Source: Mesoplasma lactucae ATCC 49193 (GTDB lineage: Bacteria > Bacillota_I > Bacilli_A > Mycoplasmatales > Mycoplasmataceae). From it: DNA of 64,000 nt. The stretch lies in the NCBI RefSeq assembly GCF_002441935.1, contig NZ_CP023668.1:186001-250000 (forward strand), read 5' to 3'. A program made the position numbers and the translations under genes. The notes beneath the pieces were generated by a model. The model searched no databases, had not been told where the DNA came from, and worked only from the letters and a program-made list of their open reading frames with translations. How positions within the stretch are numbered: position 1 is the first letter of the stretch; each line of letters starts with the position of its first letter. This document shows positions 1,932 to 43,062 of the stretch, one piece after another.

Positions 1932-1970
1932 AAACCTTTTTTAACACTTAAAAATTACATAATTCTTAAA

Positions 1971-2010
1971 AGAACTAAGACCTTAGAAAAGTCCTAGTTC
2001 TTTTTTTCTT
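1971..2010 (+). terminator. Rho-independent terminator of the repeat protein gene
   Basis: An 11-base arm starting AGAACTAAG pairs with CTAGTTCT, with one mismatch, and is followed by a run of T. It lies 40 bases after the stop codon. Confidence 0.8.
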
Positions 2011-2017
2011 TTACCTC

Positions 2018-2045
2018 TTAACATAATTTTTGCTAAGAGTATAAT
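2018..2045 (+). promoter_or_regulatory. Sigma-70-type promoter for the structured leader RNA
   Basis: TTAACA (2018-2023), a 16-base spacer and TATAAT (2040-2045). Transcription would start near 2052, about 240 bases upstream of the next start codon, leaving a long untranslated stretch. Confidence 0.65.
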
Positions 2046-2051
2046 GATTTA

Positions 2052-2247
2052 AGATAAAAGAAGAATGTTTTATTGCTAAATAAAACAATGACTTCTTGAA
2101 GTTAATAAAATGAGAAATTTATAAATAAAGAAAAACTTTAATATAACAGGGGAAAAATATTTTAAAGTTTTTTAAAAGTGATTTATTTAAGAAAAACTAA
2201 ATAAACGAGAAAAAAGGTTTGATAAGCGTCAGCAACCTTTTTTAACG
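2052..2247 (+). ncRNA. Candidate structured small RNA or attenuator leader
   Basis: Between the promoter at 2018-2045 and an intrinsic terminator at 2210-2247 lies about 190 bases without an open frame but with several perfect hairpins: 2066-2074 with 2079-2087 (9 bp), 2131-2140 with 2163-2172 (10 bp) and 2182-2189 with 2198-2205 (8 bp). It does not carry the signatures of SRP RNA, tmRNA or RNase P RNA. It may be a free small RNA or a leader that attenuates the large lipoprotein gene 47 bases further on. Low-complexity AT sequence makes chance stems likelier, so confidence is moderate. Confidence 0.45.
2210..2247 (+). terminator. Intrinsic terminator upstream of the giant lipoprotein gene
   Basis: A perfect 10-bp stem, AAAAAAGGTT (2210-2219) with AACCTTTTTT (2234-2243). 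It stands before rather than after a gene, so it either ends a small RNA or works as an attenuator. Confidence 0.7.
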
Positions 2248-2293
2248 TGTATTTTTTATAAACCCCATTTTTTTAGAAGGGAAACTAAAAATT

Positions 2294-5200
2294 ATGAAGA
2301 AATTTTTAAGCTTACTTGGAGCAATTACTTTAACTGCCTCAGCTACTAGTGGAGTTGTAGCTTGTGGGGTTACTGCTGATAGTCAAATCCAACCACCAGA
2401 TGGTGATTCAAGTAGAATAAAAAGTCTTGAAAAACAAGTTGCAGATCAAAAGAAACAAATTAGTGATTTAGAATCAGAAAGAGATAGTTTAGAAAAACAA
2501 CGTAATGATTTAACAAAAAATCTAGCAGAAGCTAAACAAGAACAAGACATATTAGTCAAAACTGTTGATGATTTAACTGCTGATAACAAAGCAAAGGACA
2601 AAAAGATAACTGAATTAGAAGGAACTAAAGCAGTTTTAGAAAGTAAATTAAGCGACTTACAAAGTAAATATGACTCACTTTCTAAAGAATTAGAAGATGC
2701 CAAAAAAGAACTTCTAGGTGTTGAACAACAACGTGACTTATTAGAATGAAAATGTGCTCAATTAGATCAAGAACGTCAACGTTTACAAGGTGAACTTGAT
2801 AAAGAACGTGAAGCTAATGAACGTAATAAAACTGAAATCAAAGTTCTTGAAGGAACTATTCAAAATTTAATTAATAATTCTGATAAAAATGATCAAGCAG
2901 CCCAAGAAAAGATTTCTCAATTAGAACAACAAAAAGAAGCTTTGATTCAAGCTGGTAATGAATCACTTAGAAAAATTAGTGGCTTAGAACAACAAATTAA
3001 AAAATTAGATAAACAAATTGATGGTTACAAAGCTCAAATTGAATCATTAAAAAATGAATTAACTGATTTAACTAACAAATATAACTCAGCTTTAAATGAG
3101 TTGAAAATTGCTTATATAGATATTTTGAATTTAAAAAATCAAATTCAAGACTTAAATTCTACAATTGAAGATGCTAGAAAAGTAATTAAATACCAAATTG
3201 GAAGAATTGAAGATTTAAATAATCAGATTTCAACTCTTAACAAGAACATTAATAAATTAAATTCTGATTTAATAAGAGTTCAAAGAGAATGAGAAAAAGC
3301 AGCTGAAGCATATGAACTTTCACAAGAAGCTTTAAACAAAGCTGTTGCAGAAATTTCTAAATTACAAGGTGAATTAGAAAAAGCTATTAAAGATAAAGAA
3401 AATAGTTCAGTAAGTATTGCTGATATGAATATCTATACTTCTCAATCTAAATCTCCAATTATTATGGCAAATTTCTTAAATACACCTCTTGTTTGAACTG
3501 AAATAATTAATCACAATATGGAAATTAATAATGAAATGCCACAAGAAGCAGGAATTATTAACATTAATAATGAAACAGGACAAATTACCGGACTTAAAGC
3601 AGGTGATGCATGAGTTCAATTTAAAGCTGAACATATTCGTCCCGTGACATTTAAAATAACTGTAACAAATCCAAATGATCCAAACCCAAGCACTGGAGGA
3701 GATGGTGGATTAACACCAGTAAATCCAGATCCAAAACACCCAGATAAACCTTTAAATCCTGCGGATCAAAACTACAACTTAACTGTTTATCAAAATACAA
3801 CTAAAACAATTACTTGAGCCCAAGGAATTAATTTAACTAATGAAATGATAACAACTACTCCTGATAATGTAGTTGATTGAATTGTTAATGGAAACGTTTT
3901 AAAAATTACTGGTAAAACTGTAGCAAATACTAAGATGGTTATTGATATTCCAAATTATCCACAAATAACAATTAATATTACTGTTTTAGGACAATCTCCA
4001 ATTACTCCACCAGATAACGGTGGAACTGGTGGAGACAACGGAAATGGTGGAATTACACCAGTTGATCCAAATGATTTAAGTAAAGGATACAAACTTGAAC
4101 TTTTTGAAAAAGAAACTAGAAAAATTAATTTAGGAACTACTTTAACTAAACCTGAAGCAAAATTCTCAAGTGAAGGTGTTGCTAGTCAATCAATTGCTGG
4201 TGAAATCTTAACAATTGCTGGTCTAAAACCTGGAAATACTATTTTAACTATTACAACTGAAAAGAATGGTACTCTAACTATTCAAATTACTGTTGATAAA
4301 TTAAATAATGTAACACCAACAGACCCAGACTTAAAACCAGGTGAAAATGGTCAATACAACTTATCAATGTATACTGGTGATGTTAAAGATATTACTTTAC
4401 CAAAAATTAATATTCCAACCAATGCTGATTTAACAAGTAGTAATGAAACTGTTGCTACTGTAAAAAGAAAATCAAACAACGTAATTACAATTTCAGCCTT
4501 AACTGCTGGTCAATCTACAATTACACTTGCAAATATTCAAGGTTATGAAAACTTTGTTATTAACTTAACAGTTGATCAAACTAAAACCGCAAAACCGGGA
4601 GATGGAAGTGGACTTGTTCCAGATCCTAGTGATAAAACTGGAAACACTTATAAAACAACTGTTTATATGGGCGAACCAAGAATAATTACATTTAATGGTG
4701 TTGATGATTTAACCAATGCTGCTGTTGATGTTGTTACTAACCCTGATATTGTTACTGCATCACACAATAGCAATTCATTATTACCTAACCAATTGGAATT
4801 AACTGGTAAACAACCTTCAAAAAATGAAGCAAAAGTAACTGTTAAAATTCCAGGTTATAACTTAATTACAATTTTTGTAACTGTTAAAGATAAAACAAAC
4901 ATCACACCTCCAACTGATGGTGGAGATAATGGTAATAATGGTGGAATTGTACCAACACCTGGAAAAGATCATGAATATGATTTAAAAATGTTTGTTAACG
5001 AAACAAGAAACATTAACATGGGTGTTGATATTACTAACGCTGATATCAAACAAGTAACAGAAGAAGGTCAAAAACAACTTGTAAGTTTTGAAAAAGATTC
5101 TAATAATTTAAAAATCACTTCAAACACAAATACAGGAGTTGCTACTTTAATTGTTTCAATGGAAGGCTATAACACTACTAAGATTCATGTTAGTGTTCAA

Positions 5201-7369
5201 CCTAACAAAGATTTCCCACCAGTAACTCCTGGTGAAGGAAATGGTAACTTAAAACCTATTGACCCAAGTAATCCTTACTTAATGTCAATGGAAATGTTTG
5301 TTAATGATACAAAGAACATTGATTTAGGTGTTCAACTATCTGATAAAGACATTACAATAGACAATGCATTATTAACAACTAAAGCAAATGGAACTAATTT
5401 AGAAGTAAAATCTGGTGCAACTAGTGGTCCTTCTCAAATTAAAGTTAAAGTTGAAGGATACAATGAAATTACAATTAATGTAACTATTAAACCCAATGGA
5501 AATACAGGTAATCTACCTGACCCAAGTGATAACAACGGATTAACTCCAAATGGAGAAAATAAATTTACATTACAAATGTTTACTAATGAAGATAAGCCAT
5601 TTGATTTAGGTGCTAACTTAATTGGTGCAGAAATTGCATATCAACCTACAATCAATGGAGTTGTTACAACTGGTACTCAAAAAGGACTTGAAATTAAAAC
5701 TGGTGCTAATACTGGTAAAACAACAATTACCATTACTAAATACGGATTTAATACAATCACTATTGATTTAACAATTAGTAAACGTCAACCAATTACTCCA
5801 CCAAATCAAGGAGGAGGAAACAATGGATTTGAACCATCAGATCCTAAAAATCCTGATAATGGAGTTTGAAACTTAATTATTGGAATTAATCAAACTGTTT
5901 CAATTAATGTTGGTATTGATTTAACTGACCCAAAAGCTTTAGTTAAACCTGTTAATGACGATAATGATGAATACTTCAGTTTCGTTAAAGACCCAACAAA
6001 CAGACAAAACTTATCTGTAACCGGAAAACAACCAAACGAAAACAAAGGAAGTCAAATTATCATTAGTGTTCCAGGACACAATGATTTAACAATTAATGTA
6101 ACTGTTCAAAACAGAAACTTTACTCCACCAAATACAGGAAATGGAGTAGAACCAACAGATGATCCAAACGTATATAAAGTAAATATGTATGTTAACGATA
6201 TTAAATTTGTTGACTTCCCAAGTAGTACAATCAAAAATGGAAAAATTGATTTTGATAACAATTTATTCGCAGATGTCAGCTGAGTTTCTACTGTTAATTC
6301 ACTATCTATTAAATCTAATCAAATTGCTACACAAACTCGCATTATAATTACTCAACCAGGTTATAATCCATTAACACTTGTTGTAAACATACAAGATAAT
6401 AATTCATTTGATATTCCAGCAGATAGTGGATTAACAACTGATAGTAATGGTGCATTTCATTTAGGAGTTCACATTGGAGAAACTAAATTTATTAAACTTA
6501 ATGCTGATTTAGTAGGCGATAACGCCGTAGTTAGTTCTTCTGATCAAAACATCAATGCTACTATTAACCATAATGGTAGTGTTGCTGTAACTGGAAAAAA
6601 AGCAAATAAAGATTCTGTATTAACTGTTTATGATCAAAAACAACATAAAGAAATTAAAGTTCATGTTGAAGTTTATGCGAATGTTACACCAGACCCAATA
6701 ACTGGAGATGGTGATGGATATTTAAATGGTCCTGATGAAAACGGTCAATATTCTCTAGTTCTATATACTACTGATAACAGAACAATTAATTGACCAAGCG
6801 CTGATACAAGTAACGCAAAAGATAAATTTTCTCCAGATAATGGAGTGATTGAATTCACACCAGGTGCACATTCATTCACACTTAGTGTTGCAAACTCAAT
6901 TCCAAGTGGAAATGAAATGAAAACTCAATTAACAGTTACTAACGTAATTGGATATAATCCATTAATAATTAACATTACTGTTAAATATGCTAAACAACCT
7001 CTTTTACAAGGTAGCACATTAGTTCCTGTTGATGGTAATAACCCAAACAATGCTAGTTATAACTTAAATACAGGCGTTGGTACTAAAAACATAATTTCTA
7101 TTAATGCAGATGGTCAACCTATTTCTTTAGTTGGACGTGGGGTTGAAATTTATGGTGATAACATTATTTCTATAAACACTGAAGAATATGTCTTAGTTGA
7201 TAGTTCTTCAAAAGCGAATATTGAATATGAAGTTGGTCCTAATCTAAAAGATGGTTTAACAAACAACCAAATTAGTATTACGATTCTTGACTCAAGTTTA
7301 AATGGAAAAACATTTAGACTTTACATCGCTGGATTCTACCTATGTTCAGTCACAATTAATTTAAATTAA
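2294..7369 (+). CDS. Giant lipoprotein: coiled coil plus about 12 Ig-like repeats
   Basis: 1691 residues, reading TGA as Trp throughout. The N-terminus is a lipoprotein signal with lipobox GVVAC and lipidated Cys24, preceded by SD-like AGAAGGGA. Residues about 35-390 are heptad-rich, high in K/E/Q/L, with almost no Pro or Gly: a long coiled-coil stalk. A BIG_2-like domain follows (about 390-470, GQITGLKAGDAWVQF), then about twelve repeats of ~98 residues, starting near 493, 598, 687, 785, 894, 993, 1091, 1191, 1293, 1387, 1485 and 1588. Each has an entry strand (YKLELFEKETRKINLG type) and an exit strand (GYNEITINVTI type), joined by P/G/D/N linkers. The architecture fits a membrane-anchored stalk displaying an adhesin-like rod; ligand unknown. 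Repeat-number variation by recombination with the paralogue upstream is plausible. Confidence 0.9.
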
Positions 7370-7380
7370 AATAATTTTTA

Positions 7381-7410
7381 AAACTCTGTTAAAAACAGTG
7401 TTTTTTATTT
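7381..7410 (+). terminator. Terminator of the giant lipoprotein gene
   Basis: AACTCTGTT (7382-7390) pairs with AACAGTGTT (7394-7402) with one mismatch, followed by T-rich sequence. Confidence 0.7.
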
Positions 7411-7425
7411 ATTTTGAAATAAATC

Positions 7426-7452
7426 GGGACAATTTCATGATTTTTATCTTAT
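7426..7452 (+). promoter_or_regulatory. GGGAC-N16-TCTTAT element, copy A
   Basis: GGGAC at 7426-7430, 16 bases, then TCTTATTC from 7447. It lies just after the preceding terminator and 95 bases before the lipoprotein start at 7548. It matches the copy in front of recA in both boxes and spacing. The lipoprotein also has a possible ordinary TATAAA at 7510, so the target of this copy is unclear. Confidence 0.55.
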
Positions 7453-7547
7453 TCTTTATTAAAGGCACAAAACTTAAATAATACAAGATACATATATAAG
7501 TGTGTTTGTTATAAAATTAAGTCATAAAATTGAGGGAGAAAAATTTT

Positions 7548-8321
7548 ATGAAAAAATTATTATCTATATTAGGAGCCGTTGGTTTGACTGCAACAGCTTC
7601 TAGTTCAGTTGTTGCTTGTTCAAGCGACAAAGCAACTGTTAAAGTCGATGGGAACATCATAGAAAATGATGCTAAGACAATGAAGTTTACTATTAGTCAA
7701 GGTGACGCTTCTAAACTTGGGATTATTAAATTAACAGATAGCACATATTCAATGAATAAAGATGATGGAATGGATTTAAACAATCTTATATCAACAAGTA
7801 AACAAGCATTACTTTCTACAGTAACTTGTGATCCATCTACAGGTGTTGTAAACGGATTAATGAGAGCAGCAGTTAATATTCCAAATAACTCACAAGTTAA
7901 ATTCAAACTTGCTAATAAACAAGTTTTAGGAATTGATTTAAAAGCTGATTTAGTTGCAAACACTTTTTATTCACCAGATTTAAAAGATATCATTATTGAT
8001 AACTCAAATGGAGATACAGTTGTCAATGCACAATATAAATTATCAAAACCAAAAGACAAAGAAGGAGTTTATGAACCATCAACAATTGCCTTTGATAGCA
8101 AAAGTATTGCTGCTAATACTTTAATTGGAGTAGTTGTCCTTTCAGAAGAAACAGCTTTCAAAAGCGATAATGGAGTTAATATCTCATATGATCAAAGTAC
8201 TCATGTTGTAATCATTGCTCCATCAAATACCACTAAAAAAGCTGATTTACAAAAAGCGTTCACAATGAATAGTGCTGATCCTTTATCTTGAAAATTAGTT
8301 GTTTCAATTCAAATTGCTTAA
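7548..8321 (+). CDS. Lipoprotein, small paralogous family member 1
   Basis: 257 residues. I chose ATG 7548, which follows GAGGGAGAAA at a good distance; a TTG at 7530 in the same frame lies upstream of that SD and would spoil the signal peptide. The leader MKKLLSILGAVGLTA ends in the lipobox VVAC with Cys24, followed by SSDKATVKVD. The body has no transmembrane segment and no motif I recognise. An internal TGA (8289) is Trp near the C-terminus (WKLVVSIQIA). The leader and first residues of the mature chain are nearly the same as in the next gene, showing recent duplication. Expected location is the outer face of the membrane; function unknown. Confidence 0.9.
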
Positions 8322-8421
8322 TTAGTTAATTTAAAAAAACGATTATGTTAAGAATTCATTTTACATACATAAGTGTAAGAATGGTAAAATGCACATAATA
8401 TAAAACAAAGGAGATAAAATA

Positions 8422-9162
8422 ATGAAAAAATTATTATCTATTTTAGGAGCTGTTGGATTAACTGCAACTGCTTCAACTGCAGTTGTTGCTTGTTCAAGTG
8501 ACAAAGCAGGCGTTAAAGTTGATACAACTGATACAGCTTCAACCAATAGTGCTAACTTTAAAATTAGTGCCGAAGATGCAAAGAAATTAGAAATCGTTAA
8601 ACAAGATTCAAATAATAAATGAGTTTTAAACACTGATTCTGGAAAAGAAATTAAATTTTCTACTTCAAAAGATCACAGAGTTGCTATAACAGATGCTTCA
8701 GCAAACGCAGAAACAGGTGAAGTAACTGCTGTAATGCAATCTGCAGTTAAGATTTCAAGTGATACTCAAGTTAAATTTAGTTATGGTAAAAAAATCTTAG
8801 GTGTAACTTTAAAACAAGATTTACAAGCAAATGCTCCAGTTATTAACGGAGCTGACGCTACAGTTGATGGTGGTCAAAAACCATATGTTAAGTCAAGTTA
8901 CTCATGAGCGAAAGGTAATAGACCACAAACATTAACTATTCCAGTTGATAATGCATCAACCATTGGAGAATTAACATTTAGTGAAGAAGGCCAAGATCCT
9001 TCTTTCAAAAATAACAACATTTCTTTTGCTTTAAGTGAAGATAAAAAATCTGTTGTTGTTACCGCAACATCAAAAGACACTAAATTTGCATCAGCAAAAG
9101 CATTTACTTTAAAAGGTGCTAATGGTACATGAACCACAGAGGTTTGATTCCAAGCTCTTTAA
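8422..9162 (+). CDS. Lipoprotein, small paralogous family member 2
   Basis: 246 residues, SD AAAGGAG upstream, Cys24 in lipobox VVAC. The N-terminus (Cys-SSDKAGVKVD) closely copies that of the gene at 7548, and the middle shares the pattern of a sentence-like segment (GEVTAVMQSAVKISSDTQVKF here, GVVNGLMRAAVNIPNNSQVKF there), so the two are tandem duplicates. The C-terminus ends with a Trp-rich strand (TWTTEVWFQAL, Trp encoded by TGA). Probable beta-rich extracellular lipoprotein; function unknown. Confidence 0.9.
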
Positions 9163-9180
9163 TAAAATAAAATAGTTGTA

Positions 9181-9213
9181 AAACATTACTTTTTTCAAAG
9201 TAATGTTTTTCTT
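9181..9213 (+). terminator. Terminator after lipoprotein 2
   Basis: AAACATTACTTT (9181-9192) pairs perfectly with AAAGTAATGTTT (9197-9208), followed by T-rich sequence. Confidence 0.85.
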
Positions 9214-9292
9214 TTCCCAAAAATTCTTTTTTAATATATAATTTCGAAGTAAAAATAATTTTTAAGGAAAAGAGAATTAAAGGGAAATGAAA

Positions 9293-9793
9293 ATGAAGAA
9301 ATTCTTAGCAATTGTTGCTGCAGTTGGACTAACTAGTTCAATTACAAGTTCAGTTGTTAGTTGTACTAATCAAAATAATACTTCTAAAGTTAGGGCTGAA
9401 GTTGATGAGGCTGGCCCAAAAGATATTGCTGATGGAATAATCAAAGTAACTCAAGCAATTAACTTGCGATTACTTCCAACTCCAGAAATTGGTTCACCAC
9501 AAGAATATAAACCATTCTTGAACTGACCCCCCAATAATCAATTAGAAAAAGAAGGAGTTATTCTAAAATTAAGTGATCCTAAAAAAATTGATGATAAAGG
9601 AATTAAATTCACTTTAGCATCAAAAGAAAATCTTCCAAATGGAACTAAAATCACTTTTGAGCTTAGACCTGGTGGAAGTGATATTCCAACTGATAACTCT
9701 CAATCTACTAAAATTAATTCTTCTACTTACCTTGAAGTTACTATTGTTGGCGACTTACAAGGAACTAACCCAACTTCTAATAAAGAAAATTAA
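9293..9793 (+). CDS. Small lipoprotein, family member 3
   Basis: 166 residues. Two in-frame ATGs exist at 9287 and 9293; the SD AAAGGGA ends at 9285, so 9293 has the proper spacing and gives the canonical MKKFLAIVAAVG leader with Cys24 in lipobox VVSC. The mature chain starts TNQNNTSK and contains DPKKIDDKGIKFTLASKE and LPNGTKITFELRPGG, echoing the strand pattern of neighbouring lipoproteins. A TATAAT at 9237-9242 could be its promoter. It is shorter than its neighbours; function unknown. Confidence 0.85.
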
Positions 9794-9811
9794 ATAAATT
9801 TAAAATAATTC

Positions 9812-9838
9812 GGGACAAATGATAATAATTCTTCTTAT
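9812..9838 (+). promoter_or_regulatory. GGGAC-N16-TCTTAT element, copy B, inside a terminator arm
   Basis: GGGAC at 9812-9816, 16 bases, TCTTATACC from 9833. The second box lies inside the left arm of the terminator at 9821-9869. A transcript starting about seven bases downstream would contain only the right arm and so escape termination. The lipoprotein at 9986 is 147 bases further on and has its own standard promoter. Confidence 0.5.
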
Positions 9839-9869
9839 ACCTATATGAGAAGGATTATTGTCTTTTTTT
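9821..9869 (+). terminator. Long terminator hairpin after lipoprotein 3
   Basis: A 16-base left arm (9821-9836) pairs with 9847-9862, including several G-T wobbles, and is followed by seven T. Confidence 0.8.
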
Positions 9870-9914
9870 GTTTTTCTTTGAAAACTGAATAATTTATAAA
9901 ACTCATAAATCTAT

Positions 9915-9944
9915 TTGAGAAGTTAACTAACTTTTAGATACAAT
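9915..9944 (+). promoter_or_regulatory. Promoter of the lipoprotein at 9986
   Basis: TTGAGA (9915-9920), 18 bases, TACAAT (9939-9944), 42 bases before the start codon. Confidence 0.5.
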
Positions 9945-9985
9945 AGAACTAATATAAAGATATATAAGGGATTTAAAAGATAATT

Positions 9986-10789
9986 ATGAGAAAATTTTTA
10001 ACTTTACTAACTGCTTTTAGTTTTACAACAACCATAGTTAGTCCGGTTGTCAGTTGTACGAAAACAACTGTTAGTAAAACTGCTAACTTAAGTTATTATG
10101 ATTCTTTTGCAACCACTAAGTTTACTAGTAAAGAAGCACAAGAATTAGGGTTAACTAAAATTATTGATGATCAAGAAAGAATTATTTTAAATTCTAGTTG
10201 ATTAACAACAAATTATAAAGATGGACAAGTTGTTGCTTACTTAAATGAAAACCAAAATGAAGGTGGGGTTGCCTTAACAATTAGTTCAACTGTTTATATT
10301 CCTAAAAATAAGAAGATAACTTTTAAAGTTCCAAACACTAATAAAGCTTTTGCTATTAGTTTTGATAAATCTTTAGTTGGTTATTCTAAAACTCATGTAA
10401 ATGCGCAAGTCGGGACATTAGTACAAAGCGGATTACCAGCAGCAAAAGTTGAATTAAGTTATGACATTGCTCATCGCTTAAATCTAACCGATTATGATGA
10501 GAAGTCTAATACTTATGTTCCGGGTTTAAGCCTCACAAATAAAAAGATACAAAACTTTAAAAATGGCGATATTGCTTGAGGGTTTATTTCTTTAGCAAAT
10601 CAAGATAATACTAATTTTGTATTCAATACTTTTAGTTCAAGAGTAGATGGATCGATAGCCATAATTATTCAATCTGATAATTATTTCGATGGAACATTAA
10701 CATGAAGATTTAAAAATTCAATTGGGACAGGAATTCGAGATTTAGAAATAGATATTCTTGGTTTGAACGGTATTCGTTTACAAATTTAG
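9986..10789 (+). CDS. Lipoprotein, diverged family member 4
   Basis: 267 residues. The leader begins MRKFLTLLTAF, with Cys24 in lipobox SPVVSC. The mature part has a domain plan like that of its neighbours: a strand with TSKEAQELGLTKI, then GGVALTISSTVYIPKNKKITFKV, matching the MRAAVNIPNNSQVKFKL segment of the 7548 protein. It is more diverged than the 7548/8422/10953 group. TGA is Trp at three sites. SD is weak. Probable surface lipoprotein of unknown role. Confidence 0.85.
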
Positions 10790-10952
10790 CTTTTATAACT
10801 TTTAGATTGTATACAATCATAATATTTCTCTTTTAATTCTATTTAAAAGGCTTTTTCATTAAGTTATAATTTCAAATGTGATTAGAAAGGAAATTCTTTC
10901 TTTCTATAAAAACTTATTTAAAAATAGAAATCTTATTTAGGAGATAAATAAA

Positions 10953-11738
10953 ATGAAAAAATTATTATCAATTCTTGGAGCAGTTGGTTTAACAGCTACT
11001 GCATCATCTGCAGTTGTATCTTGTTCAAACACCCCAGATGTAATTGCAAAAACTGGAAGTACTGCAACAATCGAAACAAAAAAAGCTGAAGAATTGGATT
11101 TAGTTAAAGTTGAAAAAGTTGAGGGAATTCCTACAGGGCTATACCAACCAGGTGTAAACTGACCAACTGACCAATCAAAAAAATCATTAACACTTGCAGA
11201 TGATAGTTCTAAAACATATAAAACAACTACAAAATTACAATACAAAAAGGCAAATATTATCGCCACTCTTACATTAGATGGTGAAACAGGTAAGGTTAAA
11301 CTTGCTATTAAAACTGATAAAGATTTAGATACTTATTCATTAATTAAATTTACCTTTAACAACGCGGCTGGAACAAATGAAAAATCAGTAAAAATTGGGT
11401 TCAAAGCAAAACAAACTGAAGTATTAAAAGAACTTACCGGCGCAGATACAAGTGTATTCTACGATGGTGCCGAATTACAATTTGCAGATAATAAATCTGC
11501 TCCTACAGAATACGAATTAGCATACAAAGATATCAATGGAGACAAACACGAAGTTCCAGCTGGCACAGATTTAACAATTGATGTTGAATATAAAGAGGTT
11601 GTTGATGTAACAACATTTGTAAAAGACGGAAAAATGTTTGTTAAAGTAGCTCCTAAAGGACATGATGGACAAAAAACATCAGTTAAAGTTTCTGGGGCAG
11701 GATTTAATAACTTATCATTCTGAGTACAAGTTGGATAA
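10953..11738 (+). CDS. Lipoprotein, small paralogous family member 5
   Basis: 261 residues, SD AGGAGA, leader MKKLLSILGAVGLTA and Cys24 in lipobox VVSC, nearly the same leader as at 7548 and 8422. The mature chain opens SNTPDVIAKTG, carries KKAEELDLVKVEKV (the same position as KLEIVKQD in the 8422 protein) and ends with a Trp-containing strand FWVQVG. TATAAT at 10865-10870 is a likely -10 box. Same family, probably expressed as a separate unit; function unknown. Confidence 0.9.
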
Positions 11739-11779
11739 AAAGCTCAATAGTTTCAAAATAAAACAATTAAAATAATATT

Positions 11780-11879: not shown

Positions 11880-12262
11880 ATGAGATTTTGATTTAATCGC
11901 TATATTTGAAAAATAATATAGAGGAAACTCCACGCTTGCACGACCTGTGATGGTTGTAATGATTATGCTAACTGAAAAAATAAGGTTAGGCTGACTTTGG
12001 AGAAAAGTTAGACGGCAAAACTTAATCTAAGGTAATTTATTGCTATGATGATGTTTTTGAAAGTGCCATAGAGACGAGAAAAAGGGAAACCTTTGAGATG
12101 GAACGCGGTAAACCCCATAAGCAAGAAACTCAAATTTTGGTAGAGGAGTCGTTTCAAGGTAATCAGAACTGAGAAACGGACAGTATTTATACTGTAGATA
12201 GATGGTTAAAACTAAACTTTTGTTTAGAACAGAACGTGGGTTATGATAAATCTCATCATATT
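11880..12262 (+). ncRNA. rnpB: RNase P RNA (bacterial type B-like)
   Basis: The catalytic RNA of RNase P, which removes 5' leaders from pre-tRNAs. Seen directly: the 5' conserved block GAGGAAACTCCACGCT near 11931, the ATAGAGACGAG block near 12068, GGAACGCGGTAAACCCC near 12102, and the 3' block ACAGAACGTGGGTTAT near 12230. The ends pair as helix P1 (TGAGATTT at 11881-11888 with AAATCTCA at 12248-12255). Length about 380 bases is normal. A T-run follows at 12261. A -10-like TAAAAT lies at 11868. Ends are approximate. Confidence 0.95.
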
Positions 12263-12287: not shown

Positions 12288-12782
12288 ATGCCAGAAGAAT
12301 TAAAATTAAAAATTCAAGAAATTTTTCAACTTCTAAAACAAGAAAATTGAACAATGGCAAGCGCTGAAAGTTTTACTGGTGGTGGGTTTGCAAACACCAT
12401 TACTAATGTTAGCGGTTCTAGTGCTGTTTTCTTAGGTTCATTAGTAACTTATACAAACGAAATGAAACATGATTTTTTAGATATTGATGAACGAATCTTT
12501 AAAAAATATGGAGCAATTTCAAAAGAATGCGCAACAGCAATGGTTGTTGGTTGTCAAAAGAAAACCATTGCTAACTTAACTGTTGCTTTCACAGGAAATG
12601 CTGATCGTAATGTTAGTGAGAATAAACCAGCTTTTGCTGGTTTTATTGCTATCAAATTAAATGATCAAGAACCTGAAATTTTTGAATTTAAACAAGAAAA
12701 TACTATGAATATGAATCGAGAATTGTTTAAAGAATTAGCAATTAATTTTGCGATTGAAAAAATTTTGGGACTTTTAAGCTAA
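12288..12782 (+). CDS. cinA: CinA C-terminal domain protein (nicotinamide-nucleotide amidase, PncC type)
   Basis: 164 residues, the stand-alone CinA C-domain. The signature AESFTGGGFANTIT followed by GSSAVFLGSLVTYTNEMK is seen from about residue 25; the family's usual AESCTGG has Phe in place of Cys here, while the catalytic Ser is kept. The family deamidates NMN to nicotinic acid mononucleotide. The residue pattern AFTGNAD matches the usual TG.AGP region weakly. It sits directly before recA, the order known from Firmicutes, where both are competence-induced. The recA promoter-like element overlaps its last codons. Confidence 0.88.
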
Positions 12783-12793
12783 AAACTTCTTAT
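12767..12793 (+). promoter_or_regulatory. GGGAC-N16-TCTTAT element, copy F, in front of recA
   Basis: GGGAC at 12767-12771 inside the last codons of cinA, 16 bases, then TCTTATACC from 12788. The recA SD (GGAGG) follows seven bases later and the ATG 19 bases after the second box. No TATAAT-type box is visible upstream of recA. Confidence 0.7.
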
Positions 12794-12812
12794 ACCTATT
12801 TGGAGGAAGAAA

Positions 12813-13889
12813 ATGGAAGCTTTAAATACAAATACAAAAAATAATTTAAAAAATGAGGTTCTAACACAAATGGCAAAAGATAAAAAAGACGATGATATTT
12901 GAAATGATGAAACTCTTAAAGGACTTTTAAAAGATATTGAAAAATCTTTTGGGAAAGGTTCAATCCATCGTTATGGCGATGTTGAAGTATCTTCAAAACA
13001 AGAAGTTATTTCATCAGGTTCAATTCTTTTAAATAACGCGATTGGTGTTAATGGATATCCAAAAGGAAGAATCACAGAAATTTATGGTCCTGAATCAAGT
13101 GGGAAAACTACTTTAGCATTACATGCAATTGCAGAATCACAAAAAACTGGAGGAGTTGCTGCTTTTATTGATGCAGAACATGCTTTAGATCCAAGATATG
13201 CAAAAAGAATTGGTGTTGATATTAATAACTTATTAGTTTCACAACCAGATAACGGAGAACAAGCATTAGACATTTTAGAAATGCTAGTTAAATCAAACAC
13301 AATTGATATTGTTGTGATTGATAGTGTGGCAGCCTTAGTTCCCAAATCAGAACTTGAAGGTGAAATGGGAGATCAAAACATCGGTCTTCAAGCGAGAATG
13401 ATGTCAAAAGCTTTACGTAAGCTAAACGGAATTGTTGCAAAAACTAATACAACTGTAATTTTTATTAACCAAATTAGAGAAAAGGTTGGAGTTGTTTTTG
13501 GAAATCCAGAAGTAACATCTGGTGGAAGAGCATTACGTTTCTATTCATCATTAAGAATTGAAACAAGAAAAGGTGAAACCATTATTAAAGATGGTGAAGC
13601 AACTGGAAATAAAATCAAAATCAAAGTTGTTAAAAATAAAGTAGCCCCACCTTTTAGAACAGCAATAATTACAATTAACTACAACGAAGGAATTGATAAT
13701 GAAAATGAAATTATCGATTTAGCTTCAACTTATGAAATTCTAGATAAAGCTGGAGTTTGATATTCATATAATGGTGAAAAAATTGGTCAAGGACGAGAAA
13801 ACACTCGTAAATGACTTCAAGACAACCCAGATAAAAAACAAGAAATTTATGACAAACTTTATCAAATTTTAGAAAACAACAATAAATAA
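12813..13889 (+). CDS. recA: Recombinase RecA
   Basis: 358 residues, full length. It forms filaments on single-stranded DNA and drives strand exchange in recombination and repair. Walker A GPESSGKT is at about residue 92, followed by the RecA motifs [32 protein letters not shown], and the L2 region [32 protein letters not shown] encodes Trp at three sites. The start at 12813 follows GGAGGAAG; it adds about 20 residues before the family's usual start, and ATG 12870 is an alternative. Preceded by the GGGAC/TCTTAT element, suggesting separate regulation from cinA. A hairpin follows at 13925. Confidence 0.97.
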
Positions 13890-13982: not shown

Positions 13983-15500
13983 ATGACAACAAAAATACTT
14001 GCTATTGTGTTCGGTGTCTTACTTGGTATTTCACTAATAGCATTAATTATCTGAACAAGTTTCTATTTCTCAAAATCACAAAAGAACATTCGTGAAAAAG
14101 CGAGAAAAGAAGCAAAAAAAGAAAAACAACAAATTATTGGTTCTGGTTATAAAGAAATTAACCAAGAACGAAGAAAAATCAATGACGAAGTTGAGCAAAC
14201 AAAAATCTTTATAGCAAAAGAAATGACCAACTTAGAATTTGAAAAACAACAATTAAATAGCATGAAAGCTACTTTAAATAATCGTGAGATTAACGTTGAA
14301 AACTATGAAAATAGTTTAAAAAAACAAGAAAAAGAATTAAACATCTTATCTGAAAAACTTGAAAACGATTTAGCAAATGTTGCAAGCATTTCTAAAGAGG
14401 AAGCAAAAGAAAAGATGTTTGAAGTAGTTAAACATAATACTGCTAAAGAACTTAGCGCTTATGTTAGATCACAAGAATTAGAAGCATCAAAAACTGCTAA
14501 GAAAAAAGCTGCTGACATTCTTCTTGAAGCAATGGAAAAATTTAAAACCGATTTTGCTTCAGAAAGAGTAACAACAGTTGTTAAAATTCCTGACGAACAA
14601 ATGAAGGGAAGAATCATCGGAAAAGATGGAAGAAACATTAAAACTTTCGAACAATATGCTGGAGTTGATATCGTCATTGATGACACACCAGATATGATTC
14701 TGGTTTCAAGTTTCAACCCAATCCGTAGAGAAATCGCTGTTAAAACATTAGAAAAATTAATTAGTGATGGAAGAATTCAACCTGTGAGAATTGAACAAGA
14801 ATTAATTGAACAAGAAAAACTATTAAATGATGTAATTTTGGAAACTGGTCAAAAGGTTACTGAAGAATTAGGTATTTATGACATGGACTTACAACTTGTT
14901 AAGCTTGTAGGGCAATTGAAATACAGAACTAGTTATACACAAAATGTTTTAACTCACTCAATTGAAGTTGCGCAAATCTCAAGAACAATTGCAGAAGAAC
15001 TTGGTTTAAATGCTCATGATGCAGTTAGAGCTGGTTTATTACACGATATTGGTAAAGCAGTTGACTTTGAAGAAGAAGGAAACCACGTTGAACTTGGTGT
15101 TGAACTTGCAAGAAAATATGGTGAAAACGAAGTTGTAGTTAATGCAATTGCTGCTCACCATGAAGATGTTCCAAAACAAACTTTCATCGCATCAATTGTT
15201 GCAATCGCTGATTCAATTTCAGCTTCAAGACCTGGAGCTAGAAATGAACAAACAGAAGATTTTGTTAAAAGAATTAATGAAATTGAAGAAATCTGTAACC
15301 AAATTCCTGGAGTAACTAGAAGCTATGCTTTACAATCTGGAAGACAAGTTAGGGTTATTGTTGATCCTGCGGTTGTTTCTGATTATGATATTTCTCAGTT
15401 ATCACAAGAAATTGCAGATAAATTAAAAGAAGTTTCAATTCCTGGTAATACAACTTTAACTATTATTCGTGAAAGAAGAGAAACTACAATAATCAAATAG
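13983..15500 (+). CDS. rny: Ribonuclease Y
   Basis: 505 residues, the membrane-bound endoribonuclease that starts mRNA decay in Firmicutes and Mollicutes. An N-terminal membrane helix spans residues about 5-28 (Trp from TGA inside it), followed by a charged coiled coil to about 190, a KH RNA-binding domain with GRIIGKDGRNIK near 209, and an HD domain with metal-binding HDIGKA near 354 and HHEDVP downstream. The length and order are those of the family. The start at 13983 is needed to include the membrane helix; SD AGGAAG is 9 bases upstream. Confidence 0.96.
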
Positions 15501-21864: not shown

Positions 21865-21891
21865 GGGATTTTTTATTAACTTTTCTCTTAT
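21865..21891 (+). promoter_or_regulatory. GGGAT-N16-TCTTAT element, copy C, in front of a structured RNA
   Basis: GGGAT (21865-21869), 16 bases, TCTTATTC from 21886. The structured RNA begins at 21895, where transcription would be expected to start (about 21898). Confidence 0.6.
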
Positions 21892-21894
21892 TCT

Positions 21895-22013
21895 AATGTG
21901 AGGGAGAAGAACGGAATCCGCTATATGATAAGTTTTTCGGCAAAAACAATTAAATAGGTATTATTGAGAGGTTTTCTTATTTAATGTCATATCCAATCTT
22001 TTCTCTCACCATT
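21895..22013 (+). ncRNA. Novel candidate RNA with three-way junction
   Basis: A closing stem P1 pairs 21895-21910 with 21997-22013 (about 16 bp with G-T wobbles and one bulge). Inside, P2 pairs 21923-21929 with 21986-21992. P2 encloses exactly two hairpins: GTTTTT/AAAAAC with loop CGGC (21932-21947) and ATTAAATA/TATTTAAT (21949-21985). Only a few unpaired bases separate the helices, so the junction is compact. A 3-bp CGG-CCG hairpin sits at 21912-21920. There is no start codon behind the GAGGGAG in its 5' arm. It does not show SRP, tmRNA, 6S or known riboswitch signatures that I recognise. It may be a free RNA or an upstream element of the ssb-dprA transcript. Confidence 0.6.
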
Positions 22014-22068
22014 ACATTGGTGTTCAAAATCTAATATTTAAACTTTTAAAATAATTTCACAAAAATGT

Positions 22069-22094
22069 GGGATTATTTTTTATTTTCTTCTTAT
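22069..22094 (+). promoter_or_regulatory. GGGAT-N15-TCTTAT element, copy D, in front of ssb-dprA
   Basis: GGGAT (22069-22073), 15 bases, TCTTATTC from 22089; the SD GGAGGAAG follows and the ATG is 21 bases after the second box. No TATAAT nearby. Confidence 0.65.
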
Positions 22095-22115
22095 TCTATA
22101 TTGGAGGAAGAGAAA

Positions 22116-22424
22116 ATGAATAATGTAATTATGATGGGAACTCTTGAAGGTGACGCAGAAGTTATCTACACTAGTCCTGATGGAAATAAAAGTTTATATA
22201 AATTTTTATTAAAAGTTCCAAAACCTTATAAATCTAAAGATGGGACAAACCCACCAGAAGATTTAGTAAATATCAAAGTTTGATCAACACAACTAACTGA
22301 TGAATATATTCTTCATGACCAAGCATATGTTGGAATTGAAGGAAGAATTAATTCATATGCTGGCAAAGATTATAAAAATGTTGTCAACGACATCATTGCA
22401 AACAAGGTAATTTACTTAGCTTAA
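22116..22424 (+). CDS. Small single-stranded DNA-binding (OB-fold) protein
   Basis: 102 residues. The N-terminus MNNVIMMGTLEGDAEVIYTS and the strand pattern LYKFLLKVPKPY, VNIKVWSTQL, AYVGIEGRINSYAGKDYKN, IIANKVIYL follow the OB fold of SSB proteins. It lacks the acidic C-terminal tail (DDDIPF type) that recruits partners, so it is not a typical housekeeping SSB; it resembles the short second SSB-like proteins linked to recombination. The start is ATG 22116 behind GGAGGAAGAG. Its stop overlaps the dprA-like start (TAATG), so the two are translationally coupled. Confidence 0.75.
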
Positions 22425-23152
22425 TGCAAATGGATAAAGTTCTTTTACACTTTGCTTTGAAATATGATGGTGAATGAGAAAAAATCTATGATGCACTTGA
22501 TAGAAAAGAAAAAATCAGTGCTAAAGATTTAGAAACAGTTGAAACAAAAATCAATTGTAAATATATGACAATCCTAAACCCCTTATACCCTAATAATCTA
22601 AAGAATTGTCATCGTCCACCATTTGTTATCTTCTATCAAGGAAAGATTGATTTACTAATTAACTACTATAGTATTTTTACTTATCTTTATGAAGAAGGGC
22701 TTGAACCAACAACCATTAGTGATTTTGAAAAAATGACTAAGAGTTTTGTGAAAGCTGATAAAACTTTCTTATTAGGTAATTTAAATTTAATGTCTAACTT
22801 TATTAACAAAACCATAAAACAACAAACTGATAATTGAATCGAATTAAAAGATGCGATTAAAGATTGTCCTGACACTGAAACTACCCTTTATATCAGTGAA
22901 GCATACGAAAAGAATGCAAACGACAAATGATTTATTAATCGCGTCTTACCAGGTTTAGCAACTGCAACGATTGTTTTAGAAGCTAATCGTGGTTCAGAAG
23001 TTGATGACGTAATTAAATATGGAATTAATGAAAATAAAGAAATATTTGTTTTACCCCTAGCAACAAATATTAAAAAGAAAGTTAATAACTTTTTAATCAA
23101 ACAAGGTGCTAAATTAATTGAAAAACCAAGTGATGTTTTGAACGAATTTTAA
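22424..23152 (+). CDS. dprA: Diverged DprA/Smf-like DNA processing protein
   Basis: 242 residues, shorter than the usual 280-360. DprA loads RecA on incoming single strands in transformation. Support: YPNNLKNCHRPPFVIFYQGK (family YP..L..i.dpP.vLf.rG) and, near the C-terminus, NRVLPGLATATIVLEANRGS...ENKEIFVLPLATN...NFLIKQGAKLIEKPSDVL, which follows the family order RNRIIAGLS..vvVvEA..SGS...gReVfAVPG..N.LI..GA. The central nucleotide-binding motif SGGARGID is not recognisable, so activity may be altered. Alternative start ATG 22430. Coupled to the SSB-like gene upstream. Confidence 0.75.
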
Positions 23153-34104: not shown

Positions 34105-34968
34105 ATGGATTTTGAAAATCAAAATCATATTAATTTTGGTCAAAACCAGAACTTTGACCAACTTAAACAAGAGCATAACCAAATAAAGCCAAACTTTACT
34201 AAAACTCAACTAGATTCAGTTGAACTACCAGACTGAGTTGCTAAAGATATTAGACAAGAAAAGTATCGTATTTTCTTTTTATCTTTAGTTTCTGGAGTTT
34301 TATTCTTAATTTCGCTCTTTTTTGTTTTGGCTTACTTCATTCCGACCGCTACAACTTCAAAAACAACTGGTGAAACTACCAAATGAAGTATTCCCACTAA
34401 CTGAATCCCACATCCTGCGTTCACAATTATTATTTGTGTTTTAACAGCTTTGGTTTTCACTTTAGCAATTGTTCATTATATTCATTTAATTAACTCTGTT
34501 AAGAGTTATAAAGGTGATTTATTAATGAATAATAATACAATGCCATACTTTATCATCCAAGATTATCGCTCATTAGTTGCTAGAGTTGTTTATACCAACT
34601 GAATTTGTTGCTCAATTTATCTAGTTACTGGTATTACTATTGGAGTTTTTTGAATCTTAAAAGCAGCTCATGTTAATCATGGTAATAGCTTTAACACTGA
34701 ATTAATCATTCTTTATGTAATTCTTGGAGTTACTTTTGCAATTCACATGATATCTTTAATTGCAATTAAATTAAGAAAAGGAAATCTTTGTGCTCACGCT
34801 AATGGGTCAATTGTTTCACTTGAAGATGAAAAACTAATTTCTAAATCAGCTAACAAAAAATGTTTAGTTATCTTCTTAGTTGTTGCAGCAATTTTACTAT
34901 TTGCCATTTTTATTCCCTATGTGATTATCAGAAAATCACAAGGTAAGAAAATCTTTTCAAATAAATAA
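34105..34968 (+). CDS. Hypothetical membrane protein, four helices
   Basis: 287 residues. A soluble Asn/Gln-rich N-terminus (about 50 residues) precedes helices near 55-75, 110-130, 165-185 and 200-220; a fifth near 255-275 is followed by a basic tail. Not recognised as a known transporter. It starts two bases after the small membrane protein gene and ends at a strong terminator, so this pair is a unit of its own. Two Cys-rich spots (WICCSIY, GNLCAHAN) lie near the membrane. Function unknown. Confidence 0.78.
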
Positions 34969-34978
34969 TAATTTAATT

Positions 34979-35010
34979 AATTAACCAAAAAATTGGTTAA
35001 TTTTTTTATT
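34979..35010 (+). terminator. Terminator after the membrane-protein pair
   Basis: AATTAACCAA (34979-34988) pairs perfectly with TTGGTTAATT (34993-35002), then T-run. Confidence 0.85.
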
Positions 35011-35015
35011 TTTTT

Positions 35016-35042
35016 GGGACAAAACTCTGATTTCTTTCTTAT
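35016..35042 (+). promoter_or_regulatory. GGGAC-N16-TCTTAT element, copy E, in front of an orphan gene
   Basis: GGGAC (35016-35020), 16 bases, TCTTATACC from 35037, in the same form as at recA. The orphan gene's ATG is 32 bases after the second box. No TATAAT in the interval. Confidence 0.65.
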
Positions 35043-35074
35043 ACCAAGATAGAGGAGAAAAGAGAAAAGAATTT

Positions 35075-35812
35075 ATGCAAATAGAATTATTAAAAAATAA
35101 GGATACCAATGTTGTTGAACGCTTAAGTATCCAACATTACAACCAAGAGGTATTAAAAGCGGTTTGTAATTTAAACCTTACACATGAAGATAGTATGGTT
35201 TATTTAGGAAGACTAGATATTAAGTGACACAACTTATTTATCAATTATGATCCAGACAAAAAGTTAGAGTTTTTAAAAACTGGGTTTATTGATTTTAACC
35301 AAAACAAAGAAGTTGAGTACTTCTTAAACTACTTTGTTGATTATCAAGACAAGTTAAAAGAAATGACAAGTGATGATGTGAAAAAAGACATGTGATTTAT
35401 TAACTATTATTTCTGATGTATGTTTTATATTATGATAAAAGATTTATGCTGAAGTCAAGAACTTGTGATTGGTAATCAAGTTGATGAAGAATATTCAGCG
35501 GTTTATGATCCGATGATTTTGTTTTGTTTAGAGGGAATTGATTATTTAAAGAAATTTAATTTAATTACTAAACAACAAAGCTTAATGTTTGATTTCATTT
35601 TTTATATGGATTTAGATACAAAACCAGATTCGTTATTTAAATACCTAAAAGATATGAAAATTAATAATCAAAATATTAATTTATTAGTTTTTGAAAAAGA
35701 AATCTTATTAACTTCTGAAGCTGAAAACCAAGACCATGTTTTTTGAATGTTAAAACAAAAAGCAATTAGTGGGGTTGTTTTAGAAATTATTAAAGAAAAA
35801 AATAAAGCCTAA
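35075..35812 (+). CDS. Hypothetical protein in the putative recombination regulon
   Basis: 245 residues, not recognised. Start ATG 35075; AGAGGAG lies 17 bases upstream, farther than usual, so the true start is slightly uncertain, though no other start codon fits. The chain is cytoplasmic, helix-rich and unusually rich in aromatics, with a cluster read through TGA codons (DMWFINYYFWCMFYIMIKDLCW, about 105-126), which may be a buried or membrane-associated helix pair. It is bounded by terminator upstream and clpB control region downstream, so it is transcribed alone from copy E. The recA-type element is the only clue to its role. Confidence 0.78.
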
Positions 35813-35920: not shown

Positions 35921-38065
35921 ATGGATTTTCAACAAAAACAAGACCCACAAAATGATCCTAATGTGTTAGAAAAATACACAACCGATTTGACTAAAAATGC
36001 CAAAGACGGCAAATTGGATCCTGTAATTGGGAGAGAAGATGAAATTTTACGTGTAACTAGAATTTTATCTCGTAAAACAAAAAACAATCCTGTTCTAATC
36101 GGAGAACCTGGGGTTGGTAAAACTGCTGTTGTTGAAGGATTAGCACAACGTATTGTTAGTGGCGATGTGCCTTCAAACTTAAAAGACAAAAAAATTCTTG
36201 AACTAGACATGGGATCACTTATGGCTGGTGCTTCATATTTAGGTGAATATGAAGCTAGAGTTAAAGGAATTGTTAACGCAGTTGAAAAATCAAATGGAGA
36301 AATTATTCTCTTTATTGATGAAATTCACTTAATCGTTGGTGCTGGGAAAACTGGTGATGGAGGAATGGATGTTTCAAACTTATTGAAACCTGCTCTTGCT
36401 CGTGGCGAATTAAAAGTAATTGGAGCAACTACTTTAAACGAATATCGTGAATATATGGAAAAAGATACTGCTTTAGAAAGACGTTTTCAAAAAGTTAATG
36501 TTCCTGAACCAACAGTTGATGAAACTATTTCAATCTTACGTGGTTTAAAAGAACGTTTTGAAGCGTATCATGGAGTATTAATTCATGATAATGCTTTGGT
36601 TAGTGCTGCTAAATTATCAAACCAATACATCACTGATCGTTTCTTACCAGATAAAGCAATCGATTTAGTTGATGAAGCTAGTGCCACAATTAAAACTGAA
36701 TTAGCTTCAGTTCCAACTGATTTAGATCACGTTAATCGTCGTGTGATGCAACTTGAAATTGAACGTGCTGCGTTAAGTAAAGAAGTTGATGAAAAATCTA
36801 AAAAACGTTTGACTGAAACTGATAATGAATTAACTGATTTAAAGAAAAAACAAGCTGAATTAAATGACAAGTGAAAAAATGACAAGAAACAAATTGATAA
36901 TGTTACAAAACTACGTCAAACTCTTGATTCATTAAAATCAGAATTAACTCAAGCTCAAAATGAAGCAAACTACCAAAGAGCTTCAGAATTGCAATATTCA
37001 TTAATTCCAGCAATGGAAAAACAATTAAGAACTGCTCAAGATAACTTGAACAAAGGCGCTTTAATTAACGATGAAGTTACTGAAAGTGAAATTGCTGCAA
37101 TTGTTTCTCGCTGAACAGGAATTCCTGTTAACAAATTGGTTGAATCTGAACGTAAACGTTTATTAGAATTACCAAATGATTTAAAGAAAAACGTTAAAGG
37201 ACAAGATAAAGCAATCGAAATTGTTTCTGATGCAATTATCCGTTCTCGTGCTGGAGTTAAAAACCCAGATAAACCAATTGGATCATTCTTATTTTTAGGA
37301 CCAACTGGAGTTGGAAAAACTGAAGTTGCTAAAACTTTAGCAGATGTTTTATTCTCATCAGAAAAGAAAATGATCAGAATTGATATGTCTGAATTTATGG
37401 ACCGTGAAAGTGTCAATAAATTAATTGGAGCTCCTCCAGGATACATTGGATATGGAAAAGGTGGAGTTTTAACTGAAGCTGTTCGTCGTAACCCATATTC
37501 AATCGTGTTATTTGATGAAATTGAAAAAGCACACCCAGATGTATTTAACGTGTTCTTACAAATTTTAGATGATGGACGTGTTACTGATTCTAGTGGTCGT
37601 TTAATCGACTTTAAAAACACAATCATTATCATGACTTCAAACATTGGATCTGAATACATTTTAAATGCTGAAGACCCTGATGAAATTAATATGAAAATGA
37701 TTATGGCAGAATTACAAAAACACTTCCGTCCAGAATTCTTAAACCGTATTGATGACATTATTCCATTTAATGCTTTATCAAAAGATACTATTAAAGAAAT
37801 TATCAAAAAAGATTTAAATCAATTAAGTGAACGTATGAGACAACAATCTGATTATGACATTGACTTTGATGATGGTGTTGTTGATAAAATTAAAGAAGAA
37901 GGATATGACCGTCAATTTGGTGCAAGACCAATCACCAGATATATTGAAAACAATTTAGAAACAATGATTGCAAAAGAAATCATTGAAGGAAAAATTGCTC
38001 ATGGTAAAAAATATTTAGTAATTGTTAACAAAGACAAAGAATTTGAAGTTACTGAAAAAAACTAA
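35921..38065 (+). CDS. clpB: ATP-dependent disaggregase ClpB, without N domain
   Basis: 714 residues against about 860 in typical bacteria. Works with DnaK to dissolve protein aggregates. It begins directly with the linker and first AAA+ domain ([11 protein letters not shown]); the N-terminal substrate-binding domain is absent, as I recall for other mollicutes. Walker A motifs are GEPGVGKT near 60 and GPTGVGKT near 459; the middle coiled coil (about 310-400) looks short. [12 protein letters not shown] and [10 protein letters not shown] (TGA Trp) are family signatures. SD AGGAG. A degenerate CIRCE upstream suggests weak HrcA control. Confidence 0.96.
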
Positions 38066-42902: not shown

Positions 42903-42932
42903 AGTTTTGTAACTGCATATTGAAATATATAA

Positions 42933-43062
42933 AAACTTATATAATCCAACATATCGGGTTGGAGTCTCTACCTAGCACCAATGCTAGATTATAAGTGACT
43001 TAATTACTTTTTAATTAGTAACCAAGAGAAGTTTTTTGATTTCTTTCGGTTACTATTTTCAT
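42933..43062 (+). ncRNA. Purine riboswitch (U74 type) with expression platform
   Basis: The aptamer (42933-42998) has P1 ACTTATA/TATAAGT, the conserved TATAATCC, P2 CCAAC/GTTGG, junction GTCTCTACC, P3 CTAGC/GCTAG and closing GATTATAAG. The base at the specificity position (C in GACTAT of guanine sensors) is T here, which by the known pairing rule predicts adenine. It lacks the junction changes of the Mesoplasma 2'-deoxyguanosine variant. Downstream, AGTAACC (43017-43023) pairs with GGTTACT (43048-43054), followed by ATTTTCATTTG: a likely switchable terminator. It controls the NCS2 permease. Confidence 0.9.

Follow-up and report, generated by a model that had tools for sequence, protein, structure and literature searches.

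What is the unrecognised gene next to clpB in a tiny wall-less bacterium, and why does it carry the same predicted on-switch as recA? We examined a 64,000-nucleotide stretch of Mesoplasma lactucae ATCC 49193 (the window), part of an 837-kb single-contig genome (here G000), and compared it with its relatives. The element also precedes genes for DNA uptake and recombination (comEC, ssb-dprA, recA, ruvAB and recU), and the gene is therefore probably an unknown part of a natural competence programme, which according to a 2025 paper has not been described in mycoplasmas.

The gene and its shared element

The genes of the window read through only when TGA is translated as Trp, which identifies a mollicute. 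The features that bear on the question are as follows.

34105-34968 (+), conserved membrane-type ORF, whose orthologue directly precedes clpB in two other genera (g3 and g9) that lack the target
34977-35015 (+), terminator-like hairpin and T-run of the upstream gene, ending at the element
35016-35021 (+), -35-like block GGGACA of the shared element
35025-35064 (+), inverted repeat pairing the spacer with the Shine-Dalgarno (GAGGAG at 35052-35057), a predicted fold
35038-35045 (+), -10-like block CTTATACC, with a 17-bp spacer between GGGACA and TTATAC (35039-35044)
35075-35812 (+), target gene, 245 aa (code 4), no known family
35921-38065 (+), clpB, the downstream neighbour, also downstream of the counterparts in genera g11 and g6
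12767-13889 (+), element (12767) and recA (12813-13889), regulon member
22069-22424 (+), element (22069) and ssb-like gene (22116-22424), regulon member
22424-23152 (+), dprA-like gene in the same operon (Pfam PF02481)

The observation made in the first-pass annotation, an isolated orphan ORF between a terminator and the clpB control region with the recA-type element upstream, is confirmed, and all its coordinates hold. The ORF contains five TGA codons and its ATG lies about 30 bases after the element. Searches of Pfam, NCBIfam (best E 0.09, chance), PHROGs, PADLOC, PDB sequences and plasmids gave no convincing match. The protein is aromatic-rich (14.7% F/W/Y), but its best 19-residue hydropathy window averages only 1.06, below transmembrane strength, and the proposed membrane-associated helix pair is not supported. 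Structure prediction had been named beforehand as a way to identify the protein; the AlphaFold model, built from two sequences, was poor (pLDDT 46.6) and was not used for a fold search.

The element, GGGACAAAACTCTGATTTCTTTCTTATACC, consists of two conserved blocks, GGGA(C/T) and CTTAT(A/T)C, at a nearly fixed distance with an unconserved spacer. The strict form (GGGACA-N17-TTATAC at the target) occurs 13 times in the genome against 0.7 expected from a second-order Markov model. Copies within about 60 bases of a start codon precede recA, recU, ruvA-ruvB, an ssb-like gene with dprA, a C39-peptidase/ABC-type protein, three unknown genes and the target, some with one or two mismatches in the first block. 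A divergent variant (GCGAAA...CTTACTC) precedes a 94-aa comEA-like ORF followed by comEC. RecA, DprA and the comEC relatives rest on Pfam, whereas we assigned the names RecU, RuvAB, SSB, C39 and comEA-like from sequence. PF03772 did not find comEC in G000 or in the sister species, but the proteins of relatives did. The other unknown proteins under the element are encoded at contig positions 100604 (-), exported-looking; 485233 (-), 528 aa with a C-terminal membrane segment; and 521635 (-), 405 aa. A further member, p134 (contig position 134160 (+), 14760-15212 of locus L009, 151 aa; orthologue in locus L119), starts MRKLNNHEKKKIKAGKGASG (sister species MKKLTIQAKKQIKAGKGVSG), like a double-glycine leader. 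Together with the C39-peptidase ABC-type protein, which has a degenerate ATPase (locus L013, 1820-3634), it could represent an exported bacteriocin or signal of competence.

Other copies have no gene attached. At window 9812-9870 a copy forms a nearly perfect long hairpin followed by a T-run, like a terminator. At window 21865-22070 a second element lies 200 bases before the ssb-dprA element without an open frame, and the stretch between has complementary segments and could be a small RNA. Copies at contig positions 51(-), 836109(-), 837438(-), 817459(-) and 174470(-) have no adjacent start codon; most are preceded by TAAAATAATT(T/C)GGGA or a close form, and three near the contig ends are near-identical. 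These boxes raise the alternative that the element is a structured 5' leader, with transcription started at GGG by the housekeeping sigma from an upstream TAAAAT box, and with the hairpin that hides the Shine-Dalgarno opened by a protein, RNA or condition. The boxes, found mostly before orphan copies, resemble the M. florum -10 box TAWAAT, with starts 6-7 bases downstream (PMC7745072), and the hairpins are real by statistics (see below). However, the blocks keep a fixed promoter-like spacing with an unconserved spacer; at the target, and at ruvA and p521 of the sister species, a terminator runs directly into the element and leaves no room for an upstream start; and the sister species lacks the TAAAAT box in front of most elements. 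The element matched no known RNA family in Rfam. Because of the fixed spacing and the terminators that end directly at the element, we set the pure RNA reading aside in favour of a promoter and consider it unlikely. The window also holds an RNase P RNA (class B) before cinA-recA (11885-12248) and a purine riboswitch (42917-43011).

Conservation and a second sigma factor

Orthologues lacking the element had been set in advance as evidence against a recombination, uptake or anti-invader factor regulated with recA. The only other species of the genus (G001) has the target's orthologue in the same place at 47% identity, and it keeps the element. All 11 of 11 regulon orthologues tested there have an upstream element of the same architecture: recA, recU, ruvA, C39, p134, p485, p521, the target, the sigma gene itself, ssb and comEC, the last a divergent variant in both species. 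A strict -10-like pattern close to the Shine-Dalgarno was found in only six of 419 called genes of G001, three of them regulon members. Co-occurrence with dprA, which had likewise been proposed as a criterion, was uninformative, since dprA is in all 19 relatives tested while the recognisable target is in one genus.

Other genera of the family show their own version of the element before recA, ruvA and ssb-dprA. A contig scan with RecA, meant to show recA upstream regions, returned only distant bacteria. In the three genomes with a Pfam-level comEC hit, the first gene of the comEC operon has the matching version: TTTCTAATC in g3, AACGATAT in g11 and AACGAAATA in g12. These cross-genus matches were read by eye, without a statistical test. 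The g11 and g12 versions (CGATTAATA, ACGAAATA) resemble the streptococcal cin-box, for which PMC4497675 quotes TGCGAATA and TCCGAATA. Because the motif of the window's genus differs and only g11 and g12 resemble the classical TACGAATA-like box, this comparison does not settle whether the element is a cin-box in the classical sense. The versions differ between genera but stand before the same genes.

Besides the main sigma factor, the genome encodes a 197-aa sigma-70-family protein at 662401-662991(-), between rlmB and rpmG-secE-nusG, the place of sigH in Bacillus. NCBIfam models of SigI, ECF and SigB/F/G sigma factors match it below their cut-offs. Its AlphaFold model (pLDDT 86.9) has as best PDB match 9a4r_A 'RPSH' (E 6.8e-5), which we read as B. 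subtilis SigH from the name and the length of 218 residues. Homologues are in 33 of 60 relatives at E 0.01; in g11 the factor was undetected or very weak, and the g12 relatives are divergent. In G001 and, by eye, in two g9 genomes the sigma gene itself has the element, which points to autoregulation, but in G000 no element is visible before it. That this sigma factor reads this motif is an inference; no expression data were included, and neither transcription by the sigma factor nor uptake of DNA was measured. SigH-like factors drive competence genes in L. sakei (PMC3364868) and S. aureus (PMC3486894).

Inverted repeats at the Shine-Dalgarno

Most regulon elements in both species are part of an inverted repeat that pairs the spacer with the Shine-Dalgarno, with the -10-like block at or near the loop. 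Compared with the called genes of the same genome, regulon start regions are more structured (median MFE -9.2 against -3.8 in G000, p 3e-5; -10.2 against -4.2 in G001, p 5e-5) and the Shine-Dalgarno is more often paired (p 5e-4 and 9e-6 respectively). The target was not counted in the G000 set because its Shine-Dalgarno lies outside the search range, but it folds in the same way; its hairpin is weak in G001. In simulated transcripts that begin just after the -10, median pairing of the Shine-Dalgarno falls from 0.82 to 0.36, though not for every gene. A partner-swap test showed gene-specific complementarity in G000 (p 5e-5) but not in a second set of G001 plus one g9 element (p 0.38), and part of the effect may be a pyrimidine-rich spacer facing a purine-rich Shine-Dalgarno. 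By eye, recA of g11 and g10 (loci L207, L208, L209, L217 and L218), where the sigma factor was weak or undetected with this query, also has inverted repeats that overlap the Shine-Dalgarno.

We propose, but have not shown, that the repeat acts as a lock against read-through transcription. In this view, RNA reading through from the upstream gene would fold and hide the start site, whereas RNA begun at the sigma promoter would lack the 5' half and could be translated. An inverted repeat near a start codon also lowers translation of a competence gene in S. aureus (PMC3486894), but there it lies before sigH only, while here it lies before most regulon genes and encloses the putative -10. The proposed logic recalls that of phage T4 late genes, whose start site is hidden in early read-through RNA so that only the late transcript is translatable; this has not been demonstrated here, where we deal with a bacterial regulon and hairpins of modest strength.

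Reach of the gene and its likely role

Among 320 genomes of the order, only the two species of the genus match the target convincingly. In g3 and g9 genomes the gene before clpB is the orthologue of the ORF at 34105 and nothing lies between. In g11 and in one genome of g6, a ~250-aa protein stands directly before clpB in most of the genomes that have it, and is preceded by the genus version of the element wherever the start codon is clear. In genome G006, for example, TTTTTTGCGTAAGACTAAGG stands before this gene and TTTTTTTTGCGTTAACCTAAGTGG before recA. The family diverges very fast even within g11. It shares place, length and a genus-specific competence element with the target, together with a co-linear C-terminal stretch around LEKE, but the sequence similarity is not significant (hhalign E 0.22; HMM search negative, rank 441 of 699). 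The profile alignment was the longest of 151 decoy comparisons (70 columns) and lay at nearly the same position in both proteins (offset 4), but it ranked only 15th by score, and the length measure was chosen after seeing the alignment. The similarity tests thus leave the relationship undecided; homology is suggestive, not proven, and we consider orthology somewhat more likely than not.

Our data are best explained by a model in which the target belongs to a competence regulon switched on by an alternative sigma factor of the SigH/ComX kind, with the element (-35 GGGACA, -10 CTTATACC) as its promoter; we put this at roughly 0.7. The motif, the regulon, its conservation and the sigma gene come directly from our analysis, whereas the use of this motif by this sigma factor, the hairpin switch and the role of the protein are inferred. 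The biochemical function of the product is unknown and it has no recognisable domain. Made in competent cells together with ComEC, SSB, DprA, RecA, RuvAB and RecU, it would most likely be a cytosolic, mainly helical accessory protein of DNA uptake or recombination, or of the sigma factor itself, and it probably belongs to a very fast-evolving family that keeps its place before clpB in other genera. The interpretation in the first-pass annotation is thus partly supported: co-regulation with recA is supported and extends further than had been proposed, and a recombination or uptake factor is the best-supported reading, but the membrane and anti-invader readings are not supported. A defence or immunity protein expressed during competence is conceivable, given the restricted distribution and fast evolution of the gene and the presence of the C39 transporter and the leader-bearing peptide in the regulon. 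We regard it as very unlikely, since PADLOC and PHROGs gave no match and the gene is not adjacent to those genes.

The late-competence regulons of Firmicutes under SigH/ComX (SigX), as in L. sakei, S. aureus and streptococci, likewise combine an alternative sigma at the sigH locus with one short promoter motif before comEA/comEC, dprA, ssb and recA. In the window's genus the motif is GGGACA-N17-TTATAC, ruvAB and recU are included, the element usually overlaps a Shine-Dalgarno hairpin, and several members are unknown. No comG pilus (pseudopilus) genes were seen among the members found, although they were not searched for.

The sigma20 (MG428) regulon of Mycoplasma genitalium, in which a mollicute alternative sigma controls recA, ruvA, ruvB and unknown genes (PMC9262362), suggests a different role: recombination or repair, used for antigenic variation of the neighbouring lipoproteins or for DNA damage and not for uptake of outside DNA, with the target as a recombination helper. 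An array of lipoprotein-like genes and two large proteins with repeated domains lie just upstream of recA (window 1-11750), two orphan elements lie among the lipoprotein arrays, and recA, ruvAB and recU are in the regulon. Whether recA and ruvAB are under the alternative sigma here is left undecided by the shared motif alone, and neither homology of the sigma factor to MG428 nor the promoter consensus was compared. Since comEA-like/comEC and ssb-dprA, typical of transformation, are in the regulon in several genera, we find this reading doubtful.

It is also possible, though unlikely, that the target is a sigma accessory or feedback factor, as ComW is for SigX or RrlA/RrlB for sigma20, and not a DNA-handling protein. 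Its fast evolution, the absence of a catalytic-looking conserved motif and its place in the regulon would fit, and sigma20 needs such factors, which are themselves in its regulon (PMC9262362). There is no direct evidence, and the target is longer than ComW.

A bolder reading, tentative and in our estimate less likely than not, is that Spiroplasma/Entomoplasma-type mollicutes, to which kinship is inferred, have a sigma-H-driven natural competence programme that annotation has missed. Its promoters would lie inside Shine-Dalgarno-hiding hairpins that silence read-through RNA, and the gene before clpB (the target and its fast-evolving counterparts) would be a core transformation protein of a new family. 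One promoter-like element ties an overlooked sigma factor to comEC, ssb-dprA, recA, ruvAB, recU and a handful of unknown genes, and versions of it recur across genera. This makes natural transformation in near-minimal cells directly testable, and gives a short list of unknown proteins, the target among them, whose role can be tested by knock-out.
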